DNA of 64,000 bases from Acidobacteria bacterium Mor1. GTDB taxonomy: Bacteria > Acidobacteriota > Polarisedimenticolia > Polarisedimenticolales > Polarisedimenticolaceae. The first letter of the stretch is position 1; every line of letters begins with the position of its first letter. The stretch covers positions 4,643,579 through 4,707,578 of the forward strand of contig CP011806.1 of NCBI GenBank assembly GCA_001664505.1, written 5' to 3'. Under the pieces are notes generated by a model. That model had not been told where the DNA came from, made no database searches, and saw nothing but the letters and a program-made list of their open reading frames with translations. A program made the translations under genes and the position numbers. This document shows positions 24,595-32,954 of the stretch, piece after piece.

Positions 24595-25410
24595 ATGCCG
24601 CCGCAGCGAACCATCTGGTTGACCGGGATGCCCCGCTCGGGCACCAACTGGGTTTCGCAGATCCTGGCGTCGAGTCCCGAGGTGCGGCTGAAGCTCTGTC
24701 CGCTGTTTTCCTACGAGTTCAAGGACGCCCTCGACGAGACCGCGAGCACCGGCGATTGGCAACGCTTCTTCCGCAAGGTCTACGAGACCTCCGGCGAGTA
24801 CCTGGATCAGGTCTACCTGCGGAAGGAAGGGTTGGTTCCCGAGTTCGCCGAGCGGGAGGCCGAGCCGCCGGTGCTGGCAATCAAGTCGACCCGCTACCAC
24901 CACCTGACCGAACCGCTGTTGGAGCGGGACCCGGAGATTCGCTTTATCGCCCTGGTGCGCCATCCGGCGGGAGCGATCCACTCCTGGCTCGACAACCCCC
25001 ACGAGTTTCCCGCCGGCGCCGACCCGATGGAGCAGTGGCGCAGCGGCACCGTGCGCAAGACCGCGCGGTCGGAGTACTGGGGGTTCGACGATTGGCTCCA
25101 GGTGACGCAGATGCACCTGCGGCTCGCCGAGGCCTGGCCCGATCGCTTCCTGCTGTTGCGCTACGAGACCTTCGTCGCCGAGGCCGAGGCGACCGCACGC
25201 CGCATGTTCGACTTCGCGGGCCTCGGCTGGCACGGTCAGAGCGAGAGCTTCCTGCGCCGCTCCCAGGAATCCCGGGTCGACCACAGCCGGTCGGTCTACA
25301 AGCCGCCCTCGACTGCATCGCGTTGGAGGCAGTCCCTCGACCCGCAGATCGCCGCCGCAATCCTCAAGGAGATCAAGGGCACGCCGATACAGTCCTTCCT
25401 GGAGGACTGA
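24595..25410 (+). CDS. PAPS-dependent sulfotransferase
   Basis: A 271-residue P-loop sulfotransferase that moves sulfate from PAPS to an alcohol or amine. The 5'-phosphosulfate loop is IWLTGMPRSGTNWVSQIL near residue 7; the 3'-phosphate site is IALVRHPAGAIHSWLDNP around residue 120; RFLLLRYETFVAEAEATARR is the usual later signature. No RBS is clear before ATG 24595, and TACCAT (24582-24587) looks like a -10 hexamer only a few nt away, so translation may be nearly leaderless. Stops 2 nt before the aminotransferase gene, implying one transcript. Substrate unknown. Confidence 0.87.
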   Translation: MPPQRTIWLTGMPRSGTNWVSQILASSPEVRLKLCPLFSYEFKDALDETASTGDWQRFFRKVYETSGEYLDQVYLRKEGLVPEFAEREAEPPVLAIKSTRYHHLTEPLLERDPEIRFIALVRHPAGAIHSWLDNPHEFPAGADPMEQWRSGTVRKTARSEYWGFDDWLQVTQMHLRLAEAWPDRFLLLRYETFVAEAEATARRMFDFAGLGWHGQSESFLRRSQESRVDHSRSVYKPPSTASRWRQSLDPQIAAAILKEIKGTPIQSFLED

Positions 25411-25412
25411 GC

Positions 25413-26606
25413 ATGGGGAAACAGCGGATCGAGGACCTGGCGCTGTTCGGCGGGGCCTCGACGTTCCAGCGACTGCGGCCGATCGCCCAGCTCGAGCGGC
25501 CGGACCGGGCTCGCTTTCTGGCCCACCTCTCCCGAATCGATCGCCGGGGACCCACGCCGGTCCTGGTTCCCGAACTCGAGGCGCGGCTGGCCCGATTCCA
25601 CGACGTGCCCCACGTCGTGGCGGTTTCCAACGCATGCGTCGGACTCCTGTATCTGCTCCACGTGGCAGCCGGCGGGAAACGCGGCGAGGTCCTGATGCCC
25701 GCCATGACCTACGCCGGCCTGCCCCACCTCGCGGTCTGGGCCGGTCAGACGCCCCGGTTCTGCGACGTGCTGGAAGCAACGCATACGCTCGACCCCGAGT
25801 CGGTGCGCGGAGCCATCACCCCCTCGACGACGGCGATCCTCCCGGTGCACAACGTGAACAGCCCCTGCGAGATTCGCGAGTTCGAGGCGCTTTCCGCCGA
25901 GTCCGGCGTTCCGTTGATCTTCGACGCGGTCCATGCCCTCGGCTCGAGCTACGCCGGCCGGCGGGTAGGCAGCCACGGCATGGCCGAAGTGTTCAGTCTC
26001 CACGCGACCAAGTTGCTCAACGGCTTCGAGGGGGGATACGTGGCGACCCGGGACGGAGCGTTGGCCGAGCGGCTGCGCGGGATGCGTGACGCCGGAGACT
26101 GCAGCGAGCCCCGCGGGCTCGATGGCCGGCTCAACGAGGTGCACGCCGCGATGGCGCTCAGTTCCCTCGACGATCTGGAAGGGGTGTTCGACCGCAATCT
26201 TCAACGATTCGAGCGCTACGTCCGCCACGCCCGGGAGTCGGAGTGGCTCGATGTGCTGCCCTACCGTTCCGGCGAGGCACACAACTACGAGTTCGCGATT
26301 CACCGGGTGGATCCGGATTCGCCGCTGACGCGCAACCAGTGGGTCCACCTGCTGCGTTCGGAGATGGCCGGCGCCGAGGCCTACTACAACCCACCGTTGC
26401 ATCGCACCGCGCACCGCCCTCAGGACACGGAGATGCCTCATCTTCCGGTGACCGACGAGTTGACCCATCGCTTCATGCACATGCCGGTCGGGGCCACGGT
26501 CTCGCTCGGGGATATCGACGAGATCGGCAGCCTGGTCCGCTTCATCGAGCATCGCGCCGACGAGATCGCCGCACGCATGGCTCCCCTGAGCCGGGAGGTC
26601 GCATGA
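25413..26606 (+). CDS. DegT/DnrJ/EryC1-family PLP aminotransferase
   Basis: A 397-residue fold-type I enzyme. Seen: HVVAVSNACVGLLYLLHVAA, LMPAMTYAGLPHLAVW, DAVHALGSSY (PLP-ring Asp) and LHATKLLNGFEGGYVAT, where Lys200 is the Schiff-base lysine; LDGRLNEVHAAMALSSL near 230 matches the N-x-R/K-x2-E segment. Typical members aminate keto sugars at C3 or C4; some act in antibiotic biosynthesis. It follows the sulfotransferase by 2 nt and overlaps the next gene by 4 nt. The true start is ATG 25413; the frame upstream runs through the sulfotransferase gene. The product might be an amino sugar that becomes sulfated (inference). Confidence 0.88.
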   Translation: MGKQRIEDLALFGGASTFQRLRPIAQLERPDRARFLAHLSRIDRRGPTPVLVPELEARLARFHDVPHVVAVSNACVGLLYLLHVAAGGKRGEVLMPAMTYAGLPHLAVWAGQTPRFCDVLEATHTLDPESVRGAITPSTTAILPVHNVNSPCEIREFEALSAESGVPLIFDAVHALGSSYAGRRVGSHGMAEVFSLHATKLLNGFEGGYVATRDGALAERLRGMRDAGDCSEPRGLDGRLNEVHAAMALSSLDDLEGVFDRNLQRFERYVRHARESEWLDVLPYRSGEAHNYEFAIHRVDPDSPLTRNQWVHLLRSEMAGAEAYYNPPLHRTAHRPQDTEMPHLPVTDELTHRFMHMPVGATVSLGDIDEIGSLVRFIEHRADEIAARMAPLSREVA

Positions 26607-27262
26607 GTCGCGGCCCGCTTCCCGAAGCCTGGGTGCAGGCGTTCGACGGCATTCTCCAACGGGGCTACTACGCCAACAACGGGCCGTTGGTCCGGCAATT
26701 CGAACAGGAACTCTGCCGGCGGTTGGAGGTGCCCTTCGCCGTCGCGGTGAACAGCGGCATGGGCGCGGCGATGTCCGCCCTCGGGGTGCTGGCTCCCACC
26801 GGACCGGCCCTGATCGCAAGCGACTGCGGGCCCTGGTTGCGGCGTTCCCTCGATTGGTACGGCATCCCGGCCTGGACCTTCGAGAGCGGAACCCACCTCG
26901 AGGTATCGGTCCGGGGCGCGCGGCAGGGCGCTTCGATCCTGATCACCTCCGGGTTCGTCGCCGAGGCAGACAGAGTCGCGGAGGTTTGCGAGCAGGCGGG
27001 CCTGAGCTGGATGCACGATGTCTCGGCCGGTCTGCGGAACACGCCGGCCGCCCACATCGACATCTGCGATCTGGAGCGCTCCTCGTTGCGTAACCCTGCC
27101 GCGGGTGGCTGCACCTTCACCCGCGATGCCGGCCTTGCAGACCTGTTGCGCAAGAGCCGCAGCTTCAAGGCCGGCAGCACGCCGGAGATGCCTGCCCGCC
27201 GGATGAACTTCAAGATGTCCGAAGCCCAGGCAGCTCTCGGACTGTGGGCACTCGACGGCTAG
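26603..27262 (+). CDS. truncated DegT-like protein lacking the PLP lysine
   Basis: A 219-residue protein related to the preceding aminotransferase but about half the length. N-terminal features are kept (RGYYANNGPLVRQFEQELC, FAVAVNSGMGAAMSALGVL, MHDVSAGLRNTP), but at the site that should read S-x-x-x-T-K it has ERSSLRNPAAGGC, with Arg163/Asn164 instead of the lysine. It stops right after MNFKMSEAQAALGLWALDG, where normal enzymes start the C-terminal small domain. It may be a regulatory or scaffold partner of the active enzyme, or an eroding duplicate. The 4-nt overlap with the active gene and the intact frame argue that it is translated. Confidence 0.65.
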   Translation: MSRGPLPEAWVQAFDGILQRGYYANNGPLVRQFEQELCRRLEVPFAVAVNSGMGAAMSALGVLAPTGPALIASDCGPWLRRSLDWYGIPAWTFESGTHLEVSVRGARQGASILITSGFVAEADRVAEVCEQAGLSWMHDVSAGLRNTPAAHIDICDLERSSLRNPAAGGCTFTRDAGLADLLRKSRSFKAGSTPEMPARRMNFKMSEAQAALGLWALDG

Positions 27263-27349
27263 GGTTCGCCGCAGCGCGGCACCCCGGATTCCATCAAGAA
27301 GGATTGCTGTTTCGGGTTTCTTGCGTCCTCGGTTAGTCTTTGGCCAGTA

Positions 27350-27367
27350 CCGGTCGACGTCGACCGG
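27350..27367. promoter_or_regulatory. 18-bp perfect palindrome before the TPR kinase gene
   Basis: CCGGTCGAC-GTCGACCGG is a perfect dyad lying 15 nt upstream of GTG 27383, before the GAGGAAA ribosome binding site. It could be an operator or a short RNA hairpin. The regulator is unknown. Confidence 0.4.
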
Positions 27368-27382
27368 ACCGAGGAAACGCGC

Positions 27383-30085
27383 GTGCTGACCGATCGTCGG
27401 GCTTCCATCACGTTCGGTTTGATGGCGGGGGCCTCTCTGCTCGCCCTGGCCTTGATGACACCCTTCTACAGCCTGGGTGCCGACGAGCCGACCGCGGCGG
27501 AGTTGTTCGATCGTCCCATCGAGGAGCTTCGGGGCCGTTTCGACAAGGCGGAAGGAGTGGAGCGGCTACGTCTCGGGCTGATCCTCGCCGACTACACCAA
27601 CGGTGAACTGGGAGACGTGCCCGCGCAGGAAATCCTCGACCGGCTCCCGGGCTCCGGGGAGATCGAGGCTCGGCTCGGCATTCCCTACCGGGCCTACCTG
27701 CAGGGCACCATGTGTTCGGTGCGCCTGCGCCAGGGCCGTTCCGACGAGTCGGTGGCCAACTGCGAGGCGGCGATGGCGTCTCTCGGGTCCATCGAGGATC
27801 CGTTCATCCGCGCCCGTATCGCCTACGACGCGACCTTCGTCGCCGTGCGCCGCGGTCAGCTCGAAGAGGCCTTTCCCCTGAGCCGCCAGGCGATTCAGGC
27901 CGCCGAGGGGAGCGGCAGCCGCTACGCCCTGGCCGCCTCGAAGAACGCCGATGCGTTGATCCTGTTGTTCGGTGGGCTCCATCAGGAAGCGGTCAGCCGC
28001 TTCGAGGAAGTTCGGGAGCTGGTCGCCGACTTCCCCGATCGCTCGTTGAGCAAGATCTTCGAGTTCAACCTCGGCCTGGCCTACATGGAGGTCGGCAACC
28101 TCGAGCAGGCGTTGGCTTCGTTCACCGCCGGCGCCAGATGGGCGGAGGAGACCGGCCAGCCTCACCGCATGCTGATCGGACGCACTCAGATGGCCCGGGC
28201 CTATCTCGCCATCGGGCAGCCCGAACGCGGCCGCGATCTGCTGAAGCCGCTGCTTGAAGAAGACCGCGAACATGACCCGGACACCCTGGCCCACGCGTGG
28301 CTGGTCTATGCGCGCTCCTTCGGCGCCCTGGGAAGACCGGGGCAGGCGCTGGACTTCATCGACCGAGGGATCGAGGTCGTCGAACGCCTGGAGAATCCGA
28401 TGCGTCGCGGACAGCTCGAGCTCGGGCGCCTGGAGATCCTGCGCACCCAGGGGCGCATCGACGAGGCTCTGGCGCGGATCCGCGACCTGATCGCCGAACT
28501 GCGCACCCGGGACAGCGACGAGTTGGACGATGCGCTCTACCTGTTGGCGGAGTTGGCTGCCGAGGCGGGCGACTACGAGTTGGCTCACACCGCCGGCGTC
28601 GAGGCCCGCGAGGTCGAGCGGGAATCCCAGGGAGCCGGCCTCGAGCTTCGTCTGAGCATGATGGAGGCGGCCCACGCCCTCGACACCGCCCGCCGGGAGG
28701 CGGATATGGCGCGCCAGCGGGCGGAGGCGCTGCGGGCGGTTTCGCAGCGCAACAACTCGGTCTTCTTCGGCGCCGCGGCGGTCCTGGTACTCGGCATCGG
28801 GCTGCTCCTGCTCGATCGCGCCCGTCGCCGGCAGACCGTCGTAGCCGATCGCCAGCGGCAGCTTTCCCAGGAACTGGAGGTGTTGGTCAGCGAGCGTACC
28901 GAGGCGCTGGAACAGGAGATGGCTCAGCGGATCCGAGGTGAAGAGGGGCGGCGCGAGTTGGAGCGGAAGCTCGCCGAGGCGGACAAGATGCGCGCCCTGG
29001 GGCAGCTGACCGGCGGCGTCGCCCATGACTTCAACAACCTGTTGACGGTGGTGAGTTCGGCGGCGGAGATGATCGGCGCCCGGCCGGACATGTCTCGAAC
29101 GGAGCGGACGACCTTGATCGAGGCGATCCTCCGTGCGTCGGACACCGGCCGTGAGGTGAACCGGGGGCTGCTCTCCTACGCCCGCCAGCAACCGCTGACT
29201 CCCGAGCCTGTCGAGCTCGAGCCCTATCTGGCCGAGTCGAAGCAGCTGTTCGAACGCACCATAGGGCCCGGCATGCTGCTGGAGACCGGGAGCGCGCAGG
29301 GCTGCATCAAGGTCGATCGCAGCCAGCTCACCACGGCGATCATCAACCTGTTGCTCAATGCCCGGGATGCCTCCAGCGGTCGCGGGACCCTGTCGATCGA
29401 GGTCCGGTCCATGCCCGAGCGGGATTCGATGGCGATCGAGGTCCATGACTTCGGCTGCGGCATGTCTCCCCAGCAGGTAGACCTGGCCACCGAGCCGTTC
29501 TTCTCGACCAAGGACTCCACCGAATCGTCGGGGCTCGGCCTGAGCATGGTCTACGGGTTCGTCAGCCAGTCAGGCGGCGAGCTCGAGATCCACAGTGAGA
29601 AGGGCCAGGGCACGACGGTGCGGATGGTCTTCCCATCGAGTATCTCGGTGCCCGACCCGGTCGAGTCCACCGCCGGACAGCGGCTGCCCGGCGACACCCG
29701 CGTCCTGCTCGTCGACGACAACGGCGACGTGGCGAGGATGCTCGGGCGGATGTTGGAGCACCTCGGCGCGCAGGTGACGTTGGCGACCCGCGGCTCCGAG
29801 GCTCTCGAGATCATCGAGGCGACCCGGCCGGATATCCTGATTTCCGATGTCCTGATGCCGGGGCAACTCAACGGGATCGAACTCGCCGACGCGGCTCGCC
29901 GGCTGCACCCCGACCTGCCGGTCCTGCTGGTTTCCGGCTTCGCCGAACAGATCGATCTGGCCTATCCCATGCTGGCCAAACCATGCACGCTCCAAGCCCT
30001 GGAAGAGAAGCTGGTCCACCTGATCGGTCGCCCCGGACCTCCCCCTCGGGGCGGGCTGGGGAACCGGACGGATCCGGTCTGCTGA
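27383..30085 (+). CDS. TPR hybrid histidine kinase with receiver domain
   Basis: A 900-residue sensor kinase. An N-terminal hydrophobic segment (LMAGASLLALALMTPFYS) and a second at ~461-480 (FFGAAAVLVLGIGLLLL) bracket a periplasmic TPR region, followed by a coiled coil. The DHp domain has GQLTGGVAHDFNNLLTVV with phospho-His548; the ATPase has LLLNARDAS, VHDFGCGMSP and STKDSTESSGLGLSMVYGF. The receiver ends the protein with ILISDVLMPG and phospho-Asp822. GTG 27383 is preceded by GAGGAAA at good spacing. TPR-sensed signals would drive autophosphorylation and relay; no separate DNA-binding response regulator lies next to it. The neighbouring CHAT-TPR gene begins 85 nt later. Confidence 0.9.
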   Translation: MLTDRRASITFGLMAGASLLALALMTPFYSLGADEPTAAELFDRPIEELRGRFDKAEGVERLRLGLILADYTNGELGDVPAQEILDRLPGSGEIEARLGIPYRAYLQGTMCSVRLRQGRSDESVANCEAAMASLGSIEDPFIRARIAYDATFVAVRRGQLEEAFPLSRQAIQAAEGSGSRYALAASKNADALILLFGGLHQEAVSRFEEVRELVADFPDRSLSKIFEFNLGLAYMEVGNLEQALASFTAGARWAEETGQPHRMLIGRTQMARAYLAIGQPERGRDLLKPLLEEDREHDPDTLAHAWLVYARSFGALGRPGQALDFIDRGIEVVERLENPMRRGQLELGRLEILRTQGRIDEALARIRDLIAELRTRDSDELDDALYLLAELAAEAGDYELAHTAGVEAREVERESQGAGLELRLSMMEAAHALDTARREADMARQRAEALRAVSQRNNSVFFGAAAVLVLGIGLLLLDRARRRQTVVADRQRQLSQELEVLVSERTEALEQEMAQRIRGEEGRRELERKLAEADKMRALGQLTGGVAHDFNNLLTVVSSAAEMIGARPDMSRTERTTLIEAILRASDTGREVNRGLLSYARQQPLTPEPVELEPYLAESKQLFERTIGPGMLLETGSAQGCIKVDRSQLTTAIINLLLNARDASSGRGTLSIEVRSMPERDSMAIEVHDFGCGMSPQQVDLATEPFFSTKDSTESSGLGLSMVYGFVSQSGGELEIHSEKGQGTTVRMVFPSSISVPDPVESTAGQRLPGDTRVLLVDDNGDVARMLGRMLEHLGAQVTLATRGSEALEIIEATRPDILISDVLMPGQLNGIELADAARRLHPDLPVLLVSGFAEQIDLAYPMLAKPCTLQALEEKLVHLIGRPGPPPRGGLGNRTDPVC

Positions 30086-30170
30086 TCCGACGGGCCGCAC
30101 CCGGCGGCGGCCATGCAGGGATTCAGCCCTTCCCGACGATAGAATCCTCGAAGGGAATCGGGGGGTTGCC

Positions 30171-32954
30171 GTGTCGTTGTACCGCCGAGTCTGTGTTTGC
30201 CTGCTGTTCGCCCTGATCTGGGGCCCCGTTCTCCCGGCGGCCGGCCCGAGCTTCGATGATTGCGAGCAACGGGTCCGGGACCAGCCCGAAGACCGCAGCG
30301 CCTGGGCCTGCTTCCAGATGGTCGCGCTGATGCACGGGAGCATCGACGAGGCCGAGCGGCGCCTGGACCGCTACCTCGATGAGGACCCCGCCAACCAGCA
30401 CGCCCGCCTTCAATACGCGCGCATCGTCTGGCGCCGGGATCCGTCCCGGGGAGAGGCGCTGACCCGGGAGGCGATCGCCGGGTTCGCCGGCGCCGGCAAG
30501 TCGGAGCCGCAGATTCGCGGACTGCAGATGCTTGCCGCCCAGCTGCGTCGTGACGGCCGGCTGGAAGATTCGGGGGATGCCCTCGACCGGGCCAGCGGGC
30601 TGGCGGTGGAGCTGGGACAGCCGGAACTACTGGCCACGGTACGCAACAGCATGGGGTGGTGGTCGATCGACGCGGCCGATTACGGCCGCGCCTGGTCGCT
30701 CTTTCAAAAGGTCGCCGAGTTCGCCGAGCCGGACGGGCCCCCCTTCCTGCGGGCCTCGGCCCTGGCAGGGCTGGCCGAGGTATCCCAGGCCAGCGGCCGG
30801 GAACGGGACGCGCTGCAGTTCCTCGACCGGCTTATCAGCTTCAACCTGGATCGGGGGGATCGCTACCACTCTTCCGAGGCGATGGCCCGCCAGGCCGCGA
30901 TCAGTCTCAGCTTGCTGCGGACAGGGGCTGTCGAGCAACAGCAGGTCGATGGGATGGCCGAGCGGGCGCTGCGAACCTCGATCGAGGCAGGCAACGTTCG
31001 CGCCGAGATCTCCAGCCGGATTGCCCTGGCCGCGGTGACCGACGACCTGTCGGAGCAGGAGCGGCACCTGCTCCGCGCCCGCGAACTGATCGCCGTCCCC
31101 GGGGGCAACCCCAAGGCGCGGGCGGCGATTCTGCGAGGCCTGGCTCGAGTTCGCTTCGGGCAAACCGCAGACGGCGACGGGGCCATGAGCCTGATGAACC
31201 GCGCCCTCGAGGACAGCCGCCGCCGGGCGGATCTGGGAGAGATCGCCGAGGGGCACGTCGGAAAAGCGGAGCTCATGGCCGCCCTCGGGCAGCCGGCCGA
31301 GGCCGAAGCGGAGTTGTTGGAGGCCATCGACAAGATCGAGCGCATTCGCGACCTGCAGCGCGACGGCGAGGTGCGCGCCCTGACCTTCTCCCGGTTCGCC
31401 TTCGCCTACTACCGGCTCGCCTCGATGCTGCTGGAAGAGCAGCGTCACGACGAGGCGTTCCGTGTCGCCGAGCGGATGCGCGCCCGGGTGTTGCTGGAAT
31501 CCCTGGACGATGCCCGGGCCAGTTCGCGATTGGTGCCCGAGGGGGATGCGGCGGTACGCCACGAAGAGGTGATCGACCGGGTGGTCGCGATCCAGCGCGA
31601 ACTGCTGGGCGATCAACTCTCCGACGCCGAGCGCGAGTTGAAGCTGGAGGAGCTGGAGCGTCTCGAAGCCGAGGGCCGGGCGCTGCGAGATGACATGGCG
31701 GCCCAGTCTTCGAGATTCGCCTCGGTCCACGCCCCGCAGATTCCGGACCTCGACGCGGTCCGCCGGCAACTGGACGACCGGGAAGCGGTGCTGCTGTTCC
31801 TGGCATCGACCGACTATGATCCGGTCGCCGGCGAGCGCGGAGGTTCATGGGTGTTGGCGATCACCAGGCAGGGGGTGCGCGCCCATCGGCTCACCCTCGA
31901 CGAGAGCCACGGGCGGCGGGCCGAGATGTTCCTCGGCTTGATTCAGCGACGGGATGCCGAAGGCCGGTTCGCCGCCGCCCGGATCTACCGGGATTGGTTG
32001 GCGCCGGCGATCGATCCGCTCCCGGCTGCGGTCGAGCGCCTGATCGTGGTGCCCGACGGGCCGCTCCACGGGCTTCCCATCGGGGCGCTGCGGGAACGGG
32101 CCGAGGCGCCGGCCCTGGCGGAGCGCTTCGAGATCGCCGTCGTCCCTTCGGTGACCCTCTGGCATCGTTGGCGTACCGAGCCGGGAAAGCAGGCCTCGGT
32201 GCCGGCGTTGGCGCTGGCCGACCCGGAACTGAGCACCGGCAAGCTGGTTCCCGAGCGCCTACGTCAGGGCACCCTTGCCGAGGGGGTTCACCTGGGGCCG
32301 CTGCCTCACGCCCGGCGCGAAGCCGACCGCGTGGTGCGCTTGCTCGGCGGCGGCAGTGAGCTTCTCGCCGGAGTCGCCGCCAGTGAGCGAGCGCTCAAGG
32401 ATCTCGATCTGAATCGCTTTCGCATGATGCATTTTGCTACCCACGCGATCATCGACGACCGGCACCCCGAGCGTTCGGCGGTGCTGCTGACGCCGGGAGA
32501 TGACGGAGAGGATGGACTGCTGCAGCTACGCGAGGTGGTCGATCTCGATCTGGCGGGGCAGGTGGTGGTGCTCTCGGCCTGTCGCAGCGCGTCGGGAATG
32601 CAGGTCGAAGGTGAGGGGGTGATGGGCATGGCCCACGCCTTCTTCCAGGCCGGGGCCCGCACCGTGGTCGGCAGTCTGTGGCCCCTGCGGGATGACGACG
32701 CGGCATGGCTCGCCGAACGCTTCGCCCAACACCTCAGTCGTGGCCGTTCGGTGGGGAGGGCGATGGCCCTGGCCCGTCGAGATCTGATCGCCGAAGGCGC
32801 GCCCCCGGCTGCCTGGGCCGGTCTCGTGGTGCTCGGAGACGCCGACCAGGTGCCGGTGCCCCGGCGATCGTGGATCGGCTACGCCGTTCCGCCGGCGGTG
32901 TTGCTTCTGCTGGCGGCTGCCGCCGGCGTGTGGTGGTGGCGCCGGGGCGCGTAG
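30171..32954 (+). CDS. exported TPR-CHAT (caspase-like) protein
   Basis: A 927-residue protein with a signal peptide (RVCVCLLFALIWGPVLPA), TPR-like helical repeats from ~20 to 460, a long coiled coil around ~480-520, then a CHAT peptidase domain (~600-895). The catalytic dyad is visible as His758 in MHFATHAIIDD and Cys804 in VVVLSACRSASGM, with GARTVVGSLWPLRDDDAAW further on. A single C-terminal helix (GYAVPPAVLLLLAAAAGVWW) ending WRRGA would leave the CHAT domain in the periplasm. CHAT proteins are caspase relatives in bacterial signalling and defence. GTG 30171 has a G-rich RBS; TAGAAT at 30140 may be its -10. Confidence 0.85.
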   Translation: MSLYRRVCVCLLFALIWGPVLPAAGPSFDDCEQRVRDQPEDRSAWACFQMVALMHGSIDEAERRLDRYLDEDPANQHARLQYARIVWRRDPSRGEALTREAIAGFAGAGKSEPQIRGLQMLAAQLRRDGRLEDSGDALDRASGLAVELGQPELLATVRNSMGWWSIDAADYGRAWSLFQKVAEFAEPDGPPFLRASALAGLAEVSQASGRERDALQFLDRLISFNLDRGDRYHSSEAMARQAAISLSLLRTGAVEQQQVDGMAERALRTSIEAGNVRAEISSRIALAAVTDDLSEQERHLLRARELIAVPGGNPKARAAILRGLARVRFGQTADGDGAMSLMNRALEDSRRRADLGEIAEGHVGKAELMAALGQPAEAEAELLEAIDKIERIRDLQRDGEVRALTFSRFAFAYYRLASMLLEEQRHDEAFRVAERMRARVLLESLDDARASSRLVPEGDAAVRHEEVIDRVVAIQRELLGDQLSDAERELKLEELERLEAEGRALRDDMAAQSSRFASVHAPQIPDLDAVRRQLDDREAVLLFLASTDYDPVAGERGGSWVLAITRQGVRAHRLTLDESHGRRAEMFLGLIQRRDAEGRFAAARIYRDWLAPAIDPLPAAVERLIVVPDGPLHGLPIGALRERAEAPALAERFEIAVVPSVTLWHRWRTEPGKQASVPALALADPELSTGKLVPERLRQGTLAEGVHLGPLPHARREADRVVRLLGGGSELLAGVAASERALKDLDLNRFRMMHFATHAIIDDRHPERSAVLLTPGDDGEDGLLQLREVVDLDLAGQVVVLSACRSASGMQVEGEGVMGMAHAFFQAGARTVVGSLWPLRDDDAAWLAERFAQHLSRGRSVGRAMALARRDLIAEGAPPAAWAGLVVLGDADQVPVPRRSWIGYAVPPAVLLLLAAAAGVWWWRRGA

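Follow-up and report, generated by a model that had tools for sequence, protein, structure and literature searches.

Genes and features of the locus

The window analysed is a stretch of 64,000 nucleotides from Acidobacteria bacterium Mor1 (contig CP011806.1, positions 4,643,579 to 4,707,578), in which a sulfotransferase gene (ST1) is followed on the forward strand by two genes, P2 and P3, whose products both match the Pfam family DegT_DnrJ_EryC1 (E 9.1e-70 and 2.4e-10, respectively; Table 1). ST1 and P2 are 2 nt apart and P2 and P3 overlap by 4 nt; this spacing and the gene coordinates had been given in an earlier sequence-only reading and agree with the ORF positions and Pfam matches. ST1 relatives were 34-56% identical in 13 named loci and 48% identical in a second genome of the class (G016), and no solved structure related to ST1 was found at E 0.001. 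The neighbours of the trio in the window are EamA and SSF transporters, a PH-domain membrane protein, a TPR histidine kinase and a CHAT-TPR protein; these are not sugar-synthesis genes and the trio therefore stands alone. The adjoining genes at 27383-32954, encoding the TPR histidine kinase with its response-regulator domain and then the TPR-CHAT protein, belong to unrelated families.

Table 1. Features of the trio (window coordinates) and of the locus with the remaining cassette genes (last row, coordinates of locus L060)
Feature	Position	Strand	Basis
ST1, sulfotransferase (Sulfotransfer_3), first gene of the block	24595..25410	+	Pfam, E 1.4e-19
P2, cassette DegT1, DesI-like aminotransferase with PLP lysine	25413..26606	+	Pfam, DegT1 clade
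P2 N-terminal loop: 6-residue deletion, nearby 3-residue insertion, N to R44	25536..25556	+	alignment; by motif the Spr1654 trans nucleobase loop
P2 Lys200 codon, putative PLP Schiff-base lysine	26010..26012	+	alignment
P2 segment: 4-residue deletion; N237D and K239R just before and in the N-x-K motif	26112..26129	+	alignment
GGGAGG, Shine-Dalgarno-like, 5' of the P3 start	26593..26598	+	sequence
ATGA stop/start overlap of P2 and P3	26603..26606	+	same at the DegT1/DegT2 junction in 6 of 8 cassette loci
P3, cassette DegT2 ortholog, large domain only, no PLP lysine	26603..27262	+	Pfam, tree, model
P3 GYYANNGP loop, DegT2 length kept	26663..26686	+	alignment
P3 Ser161 codon, at the lysine position	27083..27085	+	alignment
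P3 MNFKMSEAQAA motif, N-x-K kept	27203..27235	+	alignment
DegT3, ST2-like, methyltransferase and WbqC genes	L060 6512-10126 (G000 contig 1, about 3.2745-3.2781 Mb)		

P2 scored 236.1 bits against PF01041 (cut-off 19.8, residues 52-375) and carries the lysine K200 within FSLHATK, in the pattern S-x-H-x-x-K. DesI, a dTDP-4-keto-6-deoxyglucose 4-aminotransferase (PDB 2PO3; TIGR04427), was the best PDB sequence match of P2 (E 5.6e-65), of P3 (E 3.1e-8) and of the Thauera protein DegT2 described below (E 8.8e-89). P2 (296.3 bits) and Thauera DegT2 (405 bits) both fell below the equivalog cut-off of 650 bits and are therefore not DesI proper. No relatives of P2 were found in viral contigs.

P3, of 219 aa, was also above the PF01041 cut-off (40.6 bits) and has neither the PLP lysine nor the C-terminal small domain of a working aminotransferase. 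Judged from its sequence, it is a degenerate DegT relative and not an aminotransferase. When aligned with eight full-length DegT2 proteins the lysine column held Ser161, with E-R-S-S in place of H-A-T-K; the loss of the lysine noted in the sequence-only reading is confirmed, and the R-N that it placed there lies a few residues further on. That reading also took P3 for the first ~220 residues of a DegT enzyme. The C-terminus does fall at about the end of the large domain (the P3 model lies on numbers 2025-2258 of DesI chain B), but some 26 residues just after the start codon are missing as well, so that the protein is shortened at both ends; several short stretches in its middle and the whole small domain are absent relative to DegT2.

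The cassette in other genomes and its two halves here

The order ST1-DegT1-DegT2 forms the middle of a conserved cassette, methyltransferase-ST1-DegT1-DegT2-WbqC, found in Thauera, Azoarcus, Motilimonas, Ruegeria and Acidimicrobiales. Seventeen ST1 loci were compared: the 13 named loci from a scan of genome contigs, G016, a plasmid locus (L058) and two loci added by a search of 395 genomes of a Thauera's family, in which five genomes had ST1 and three of these were already among the known loci. The three-gene order was present in eight of the 17 (L045-L049, L051, L052 and L085), about seven of them independent as L051 and L052 are near-identical, and DegT2 was full length with its lysine (SFHATK) in all eight. 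A search of other genomes for the trio had been suggested at the outset, and its result removes the novelty of the trio, other genera having the same order with an intact DegT2. One kind of methyltransferase lies by ST1 in 16 of the 17 loci (none was seen in L086 and the match in L050 was marginal), as does WbqC, which is absent from L050, a contig of 6.6 kb.

The cassette also occurs in other forms. An upstream gene, DegT3, replaces the DegT1-DegT2 pair in five loci (L054-L058), and on the Desulfolutivibrio plasmid p1 (L058, 12340-14247) the DegT3 relative is fused to about 290 extra N-terminal residues with no Pfam match, beside the methyltransferase, ST1 and WbqC. A single-DegT form lies in Marinobacter lutaoensis (L053, 2564-14098) between two flagellin genes, one on each side.

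A flagellin gene lies upstream of the cassette in both Thauera loci and in L085. An APS kinase, which produces PAPS, the donor used by sulfotransferases, is encoded at one Thauera locus, and genes around the Motilimonas cassette, named by eye, resemble nucleotide-sugar and pseudaminic-acid genes. The cassette probably serves to decorate flagellin, or another surface glycan, with a sulfated and aminated deoxysugar. Among open-licence papers, none containing both 'WbqC' and 'sulfotransferase' and no description of the cassette modification were found. The conserved cassette is a firmer result than the P2/P3 heterodimer considered below.

In the Mor1 genome the cassette is divided. The single WbqC gene, at 3.277 Mb, stands in the order DegT3-ST2-MTase-WbqC (MTase, methyltransferase), and both the methyltransferase and WbqC are thus 1.39 Mb from the trio rather than adjacent to it. 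In Thauera the ST1-DegT1-DegT2 block lies between the methyltransferase and WbqC, and it is exactly this block that is missing from the locus. Identity with the Thauera proteins is 44% for the methyltransferase and 56% for WbqC; DegT3 keeps its lysine in SFHQTK and the ST2-like protein had no Pfam match. A nucleotide-sugar dehydratase-type gene, which we take to be RmlB-like from family resemblance, lies nearby (L060, 15670-16752). Flagellin-domain genes exist in the genome and neither cassette half is beside them. With orthologous members in the cassette order, ST1-P2-P3 is the translocated middle block of an ST2-methyltransferase-ST1-DegT1-DegT2-WbqC cassette.

The assignment of P2 and P3 within the cassette came from similarity and phylogeny. 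P3 scored 54-76 bits against DegT2 and 37-54 bits against DegT1 by tblastn (seven loci), and in a maximum-likelihood tree of 33 rows it grouped with DegT2 (support 99/98) while P2 fell inside DegT1 (100/99). The tree and the invariant-residue counts were made without L050, where the DegT is cut by the contig end, and from L002-L041 and L060 the tree took only those DegTs with more than 250 aligned residues (17 in number; one duplicate was removed). The L044 DegT groups with single DegTs and was omitted from the DegT1 group for invariant counts and indels. The P3 branch was 4.2-4.5 changes per site against 0.91 for P2, a length that makes its exact place in the tree unsure. On this evidence P3 is a shrunken, very fast-evolving ortholog of DegT2, and because the 4-nt DegT1/DegT2 overlap is common to six of the eight loci its start codon is probably ancestral. 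No second DegT2 copy was found in the genome with P3 and P2 as queries, the other P2 matches among those listed scoring at most 84.5 bits. A recent truncation of a normal DegT2 is ruled out by the divergence of P3, seen in its branch and its lost invariant residues.

The sequence-only reading had held that full-length, lysine-bearing homologues in close relatives would make P3 simply a pseudogene. Such homologues were seen in distant genera only; ST1 was found in two of 41 genomes of the class and two of 396 in a draw from the phylum, on both occasions this genome and G016, and in G016 it is accompanied by a single DegT.

Sequence change in P3 and P2

P3 has lost 38 of 70 DegT2-invariant residues. 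It retains a single reading frame: the DegT2 profile matched in one frame only, no compensated frameshifts were found, and no C-terminal remnant was present in the six frames of 26400-28200, in agreement with the earlier statement that no frameshift remnant exists. GC3 was 0.85 in P3, 0.85 in P2 and 0.86 in the kinase gene, compared with a GC of 0.62 in the 120 bases after P3. A further coding sign is the Shine-Dalgarno-like GGGAGG ahead of its ATG. The indels of P3 are in frame and away from the GYYANNGP and N-x-K loops. A predicted structure (mean pLDDT 82.5, pTM 0.83) had DesI as its top Foldseek match and, over residues 1-219, aligned with the large domains of sugar aminotransferases at Z 24.3 (WlaRG) and 22.4 (DesI), family structures giving Z 20-24; because aligned relatives went into its construction, the model indicates compatibility with the fold and is not proof of it. 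No P3 relatives were found in phages or in genome contigs, and plasmid matches were to generic DegT only (24-29%).

To set these features against unselected change, three DegT2 genes were mutated without selection until an equal number of invariant residues had been lost, which took 256-285 substitutions on average. Between 4 and 45 of 150 runs per setting finished without a stop codon and the absence of stops alone is therefore weak evidence for P3. A GC3 of 0.85 was not or barely reached at a neutral GC of 0.62-0.70 and was reached at 0.80 from some starting genes. The absence of frameshifts over so many substitutions is a stronger sign than the absence of stops, the null model itself comprising substitutions only. 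With its one frame, its GC3, its conserved start overlap and its confident large-domain model, P3 does not look like neutral debris. What speaks against a living gene is how very fast P3 changes and that its lysine strand has been lost wholesale.

The residues that P3 has kept are unevenly placed. Twenty-five residues are invariant in 16 cassette DegTs within the span of P3, which keeps 15 of them: none of the seven in the lysine-strand segment and 15 of the 18 elsewhere (Fisher p 0.00025, for a segment chosen after seeing the data). Those kept include three in the N-terminal loop (Asn25, Gly27, Pro28), Asp139, the two glycines that follow the lysine strand, and three in the N-x-K-M-S-E-A-Q-A motif (Asn202, Glu207, Ala210). 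P2 keeps 32 of 36 invariant residues and is changed at N44R (N-terminal loop), T211A, N237D (N-x-K) and R322E. Its internal deletions number just two, of 6 residues in the N-terminal loop and 4 residues ahead of N-x-K, and neither occurs in any of the eight other DegT1 proteins; P3 is full length in both of these loops.

In the reports on the comparison systems (PMC5936713, PMC9309667 and PMC3794620), the Spr1654 residues Gly28* and Ile30* of the N-terminal region bind the nucleobase from the partner subunit, Gln234* and Tyr249*, also from the partner, flank a flexible stretch that precedes Lys257, a position that is Asn in relatives, and the PLP-binding residues are given without the partner mark. 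The Spr1654 loops were placed on P2 and P3 by motif counting and not by superposition; by this placement the Asn of N-x-K would act in trans. The losses sit where P2 would serve its partner and where P3 would serve itself, which fits one shared P2/P3 active site, in a pattern that comes from a single pair and was noticed after looking.

A possible shared active site and its alternatives

From these sequence comparisons, P2 and P3 may form a heterodimer with one working active site, the reading that we favour, with somewhat less than even confidence. Translation of the two proteins would be coupled and their large domains would form the interface, P2 giving the lysine and the PLP pocket and P3 giving the segments GYYANNGP and RRMNFK, which the subunits of a DegT dimer contribute to one another's sites and which are both shortened in P2. 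The completed P2 site would then aminate a nucleotide-activated keto-sugar, given the likeness to DesI most simply a 4-keto-6-deoxyhexose, and the methyltransferase, ST1 and WbqC would modify the product or a glycan. We infer complex formation and the trans role of the exact P3 residues from the pattern of losses, and the substrate, order and product from family membership. A heterodimer with an inactive half had been suggested in the sequence-only reading; the losses in P2 and P3 fit it, and the residues point to completion of the partner's active site rather than to the modulation that was envisaged. More doubtful is that the pair is a half-and-half enzyme made from two paralogues, in which a full-length chain with one PLP site is lent its two lost segments by a lysine-free large domain.

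Against the heterodimer stand the single P2/P3 pair on which it is based, a very fast evolution of P3 such as a relic would show, R322E and T211A of P2, which the model leaves unexplained, and DegT3 as a replacement in the same genome. A decaying P2, or one that now takes another substrate, is possible. The main rival, a serious possibility that falls well short of probable, is that P3 is a non-functional relic, DegT3 having taken over the amination and made DegT2 redundant, with P2 perhaps to follow. DegT3 has its lysine in the other cassette half and stands in for the pair in five loci, the lost invariant residues and very long branch of P3 are those expected of a relic, and P2 shows unusual changes too, R322E being equally compatible with a degenerating pair; the stop-free null runs mean that the open frame of P3 alone proves little. 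The relic reading has to accommodate a P3 free of frameshifts and stops with GC3 still high across the divergence of some 256-285 unselected substitutions, indels that stay in frame and away from the two loops, and conserved residues that, away from the lysine strand, have been kept in a non-random way.

It is unlikely that P3 functions in a new role apart from the P2 site, as in sugar-nucleotide binding or as a partner of ST1 or DegT3, with P2 a homodimer alone and perhaps altered in substrate. The P2 loop deletions and R322E could mark such a substrate change, and P3 retains the base-binding loop and signs of coding, yet this makes the reciprocal losses a coincidence and P3 is without the small domain, which also lines the sugar site. 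That a sequencing or assembly artefact truncated a normal DegT2 is improbable in the extreme. P3 is known from one genome only, but this genome is one contig and 99.98% complete, no C-terminal remnant is present in any frame, and an artefact cannot swap 38 of 70 invariant residues in frame; the divergence of P3 effectively refutes it.

The proposed heterodimer can be set beside several known systems. P3 resembles DesI and differs in having neither the lysine nor the small domain. Spr1654, ArnB and PseC are dimers whose active sites sit at the interface and take in loops of the partner subunit; they differ from P2/P3 in being homodimers, in which every chain is full length and has its lysine. 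The intact cassettes of Thauera, Azoarcus and others share the three-gene order and the DegT1/DegT2 junction, whereas their DegT2 is full length with its lysine and their genes are together instead of at two loci. A precedent for the division of labour is serine palmitoyltransferase (hLCB1/hLCB2), according to its report a pair of homologous fold-type I PLP subunits of which one is without the lysine, and the heterodimer is believed to contain one active site. P3 without and P2 with the lysine are alike in this, but LCB1/LCB2 belong to another PLP family and to sphingolipid synthesis, and LCB1 is not described there as cut to the large domain; it would be unusual for a partner to consist of the large domain alone.

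No lysine-less single-site partner in the DegT family was found in the open-licence literature, and to our knowledge no such division of labour is known for this family. Lysine-less partners being known in fold-type I PLP enzymes, the novelty would lie in a DegT-family case, if P3 is functional; otherwise P3 is an ordinary decaying paralogue. If the heterodimer is real, the locus would be a snapshot of a homodimer family in which a pseudoenzyme is becoming the obligate partner of an active chain, and other genera still have the intact two-enzyme versions to set beside it. The cassette, with its DegT3 and single-DegT forms and its flagellin neighbours, points to sulfated surface or flagellin modification.

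The intact DegT1 proteins of L045-L049, L051 and L052 are without the Thr of the NGT motif, which DegT2 keeps. This suggests that specialisation of DegT1 and DegT2 may predate the losses in P3.
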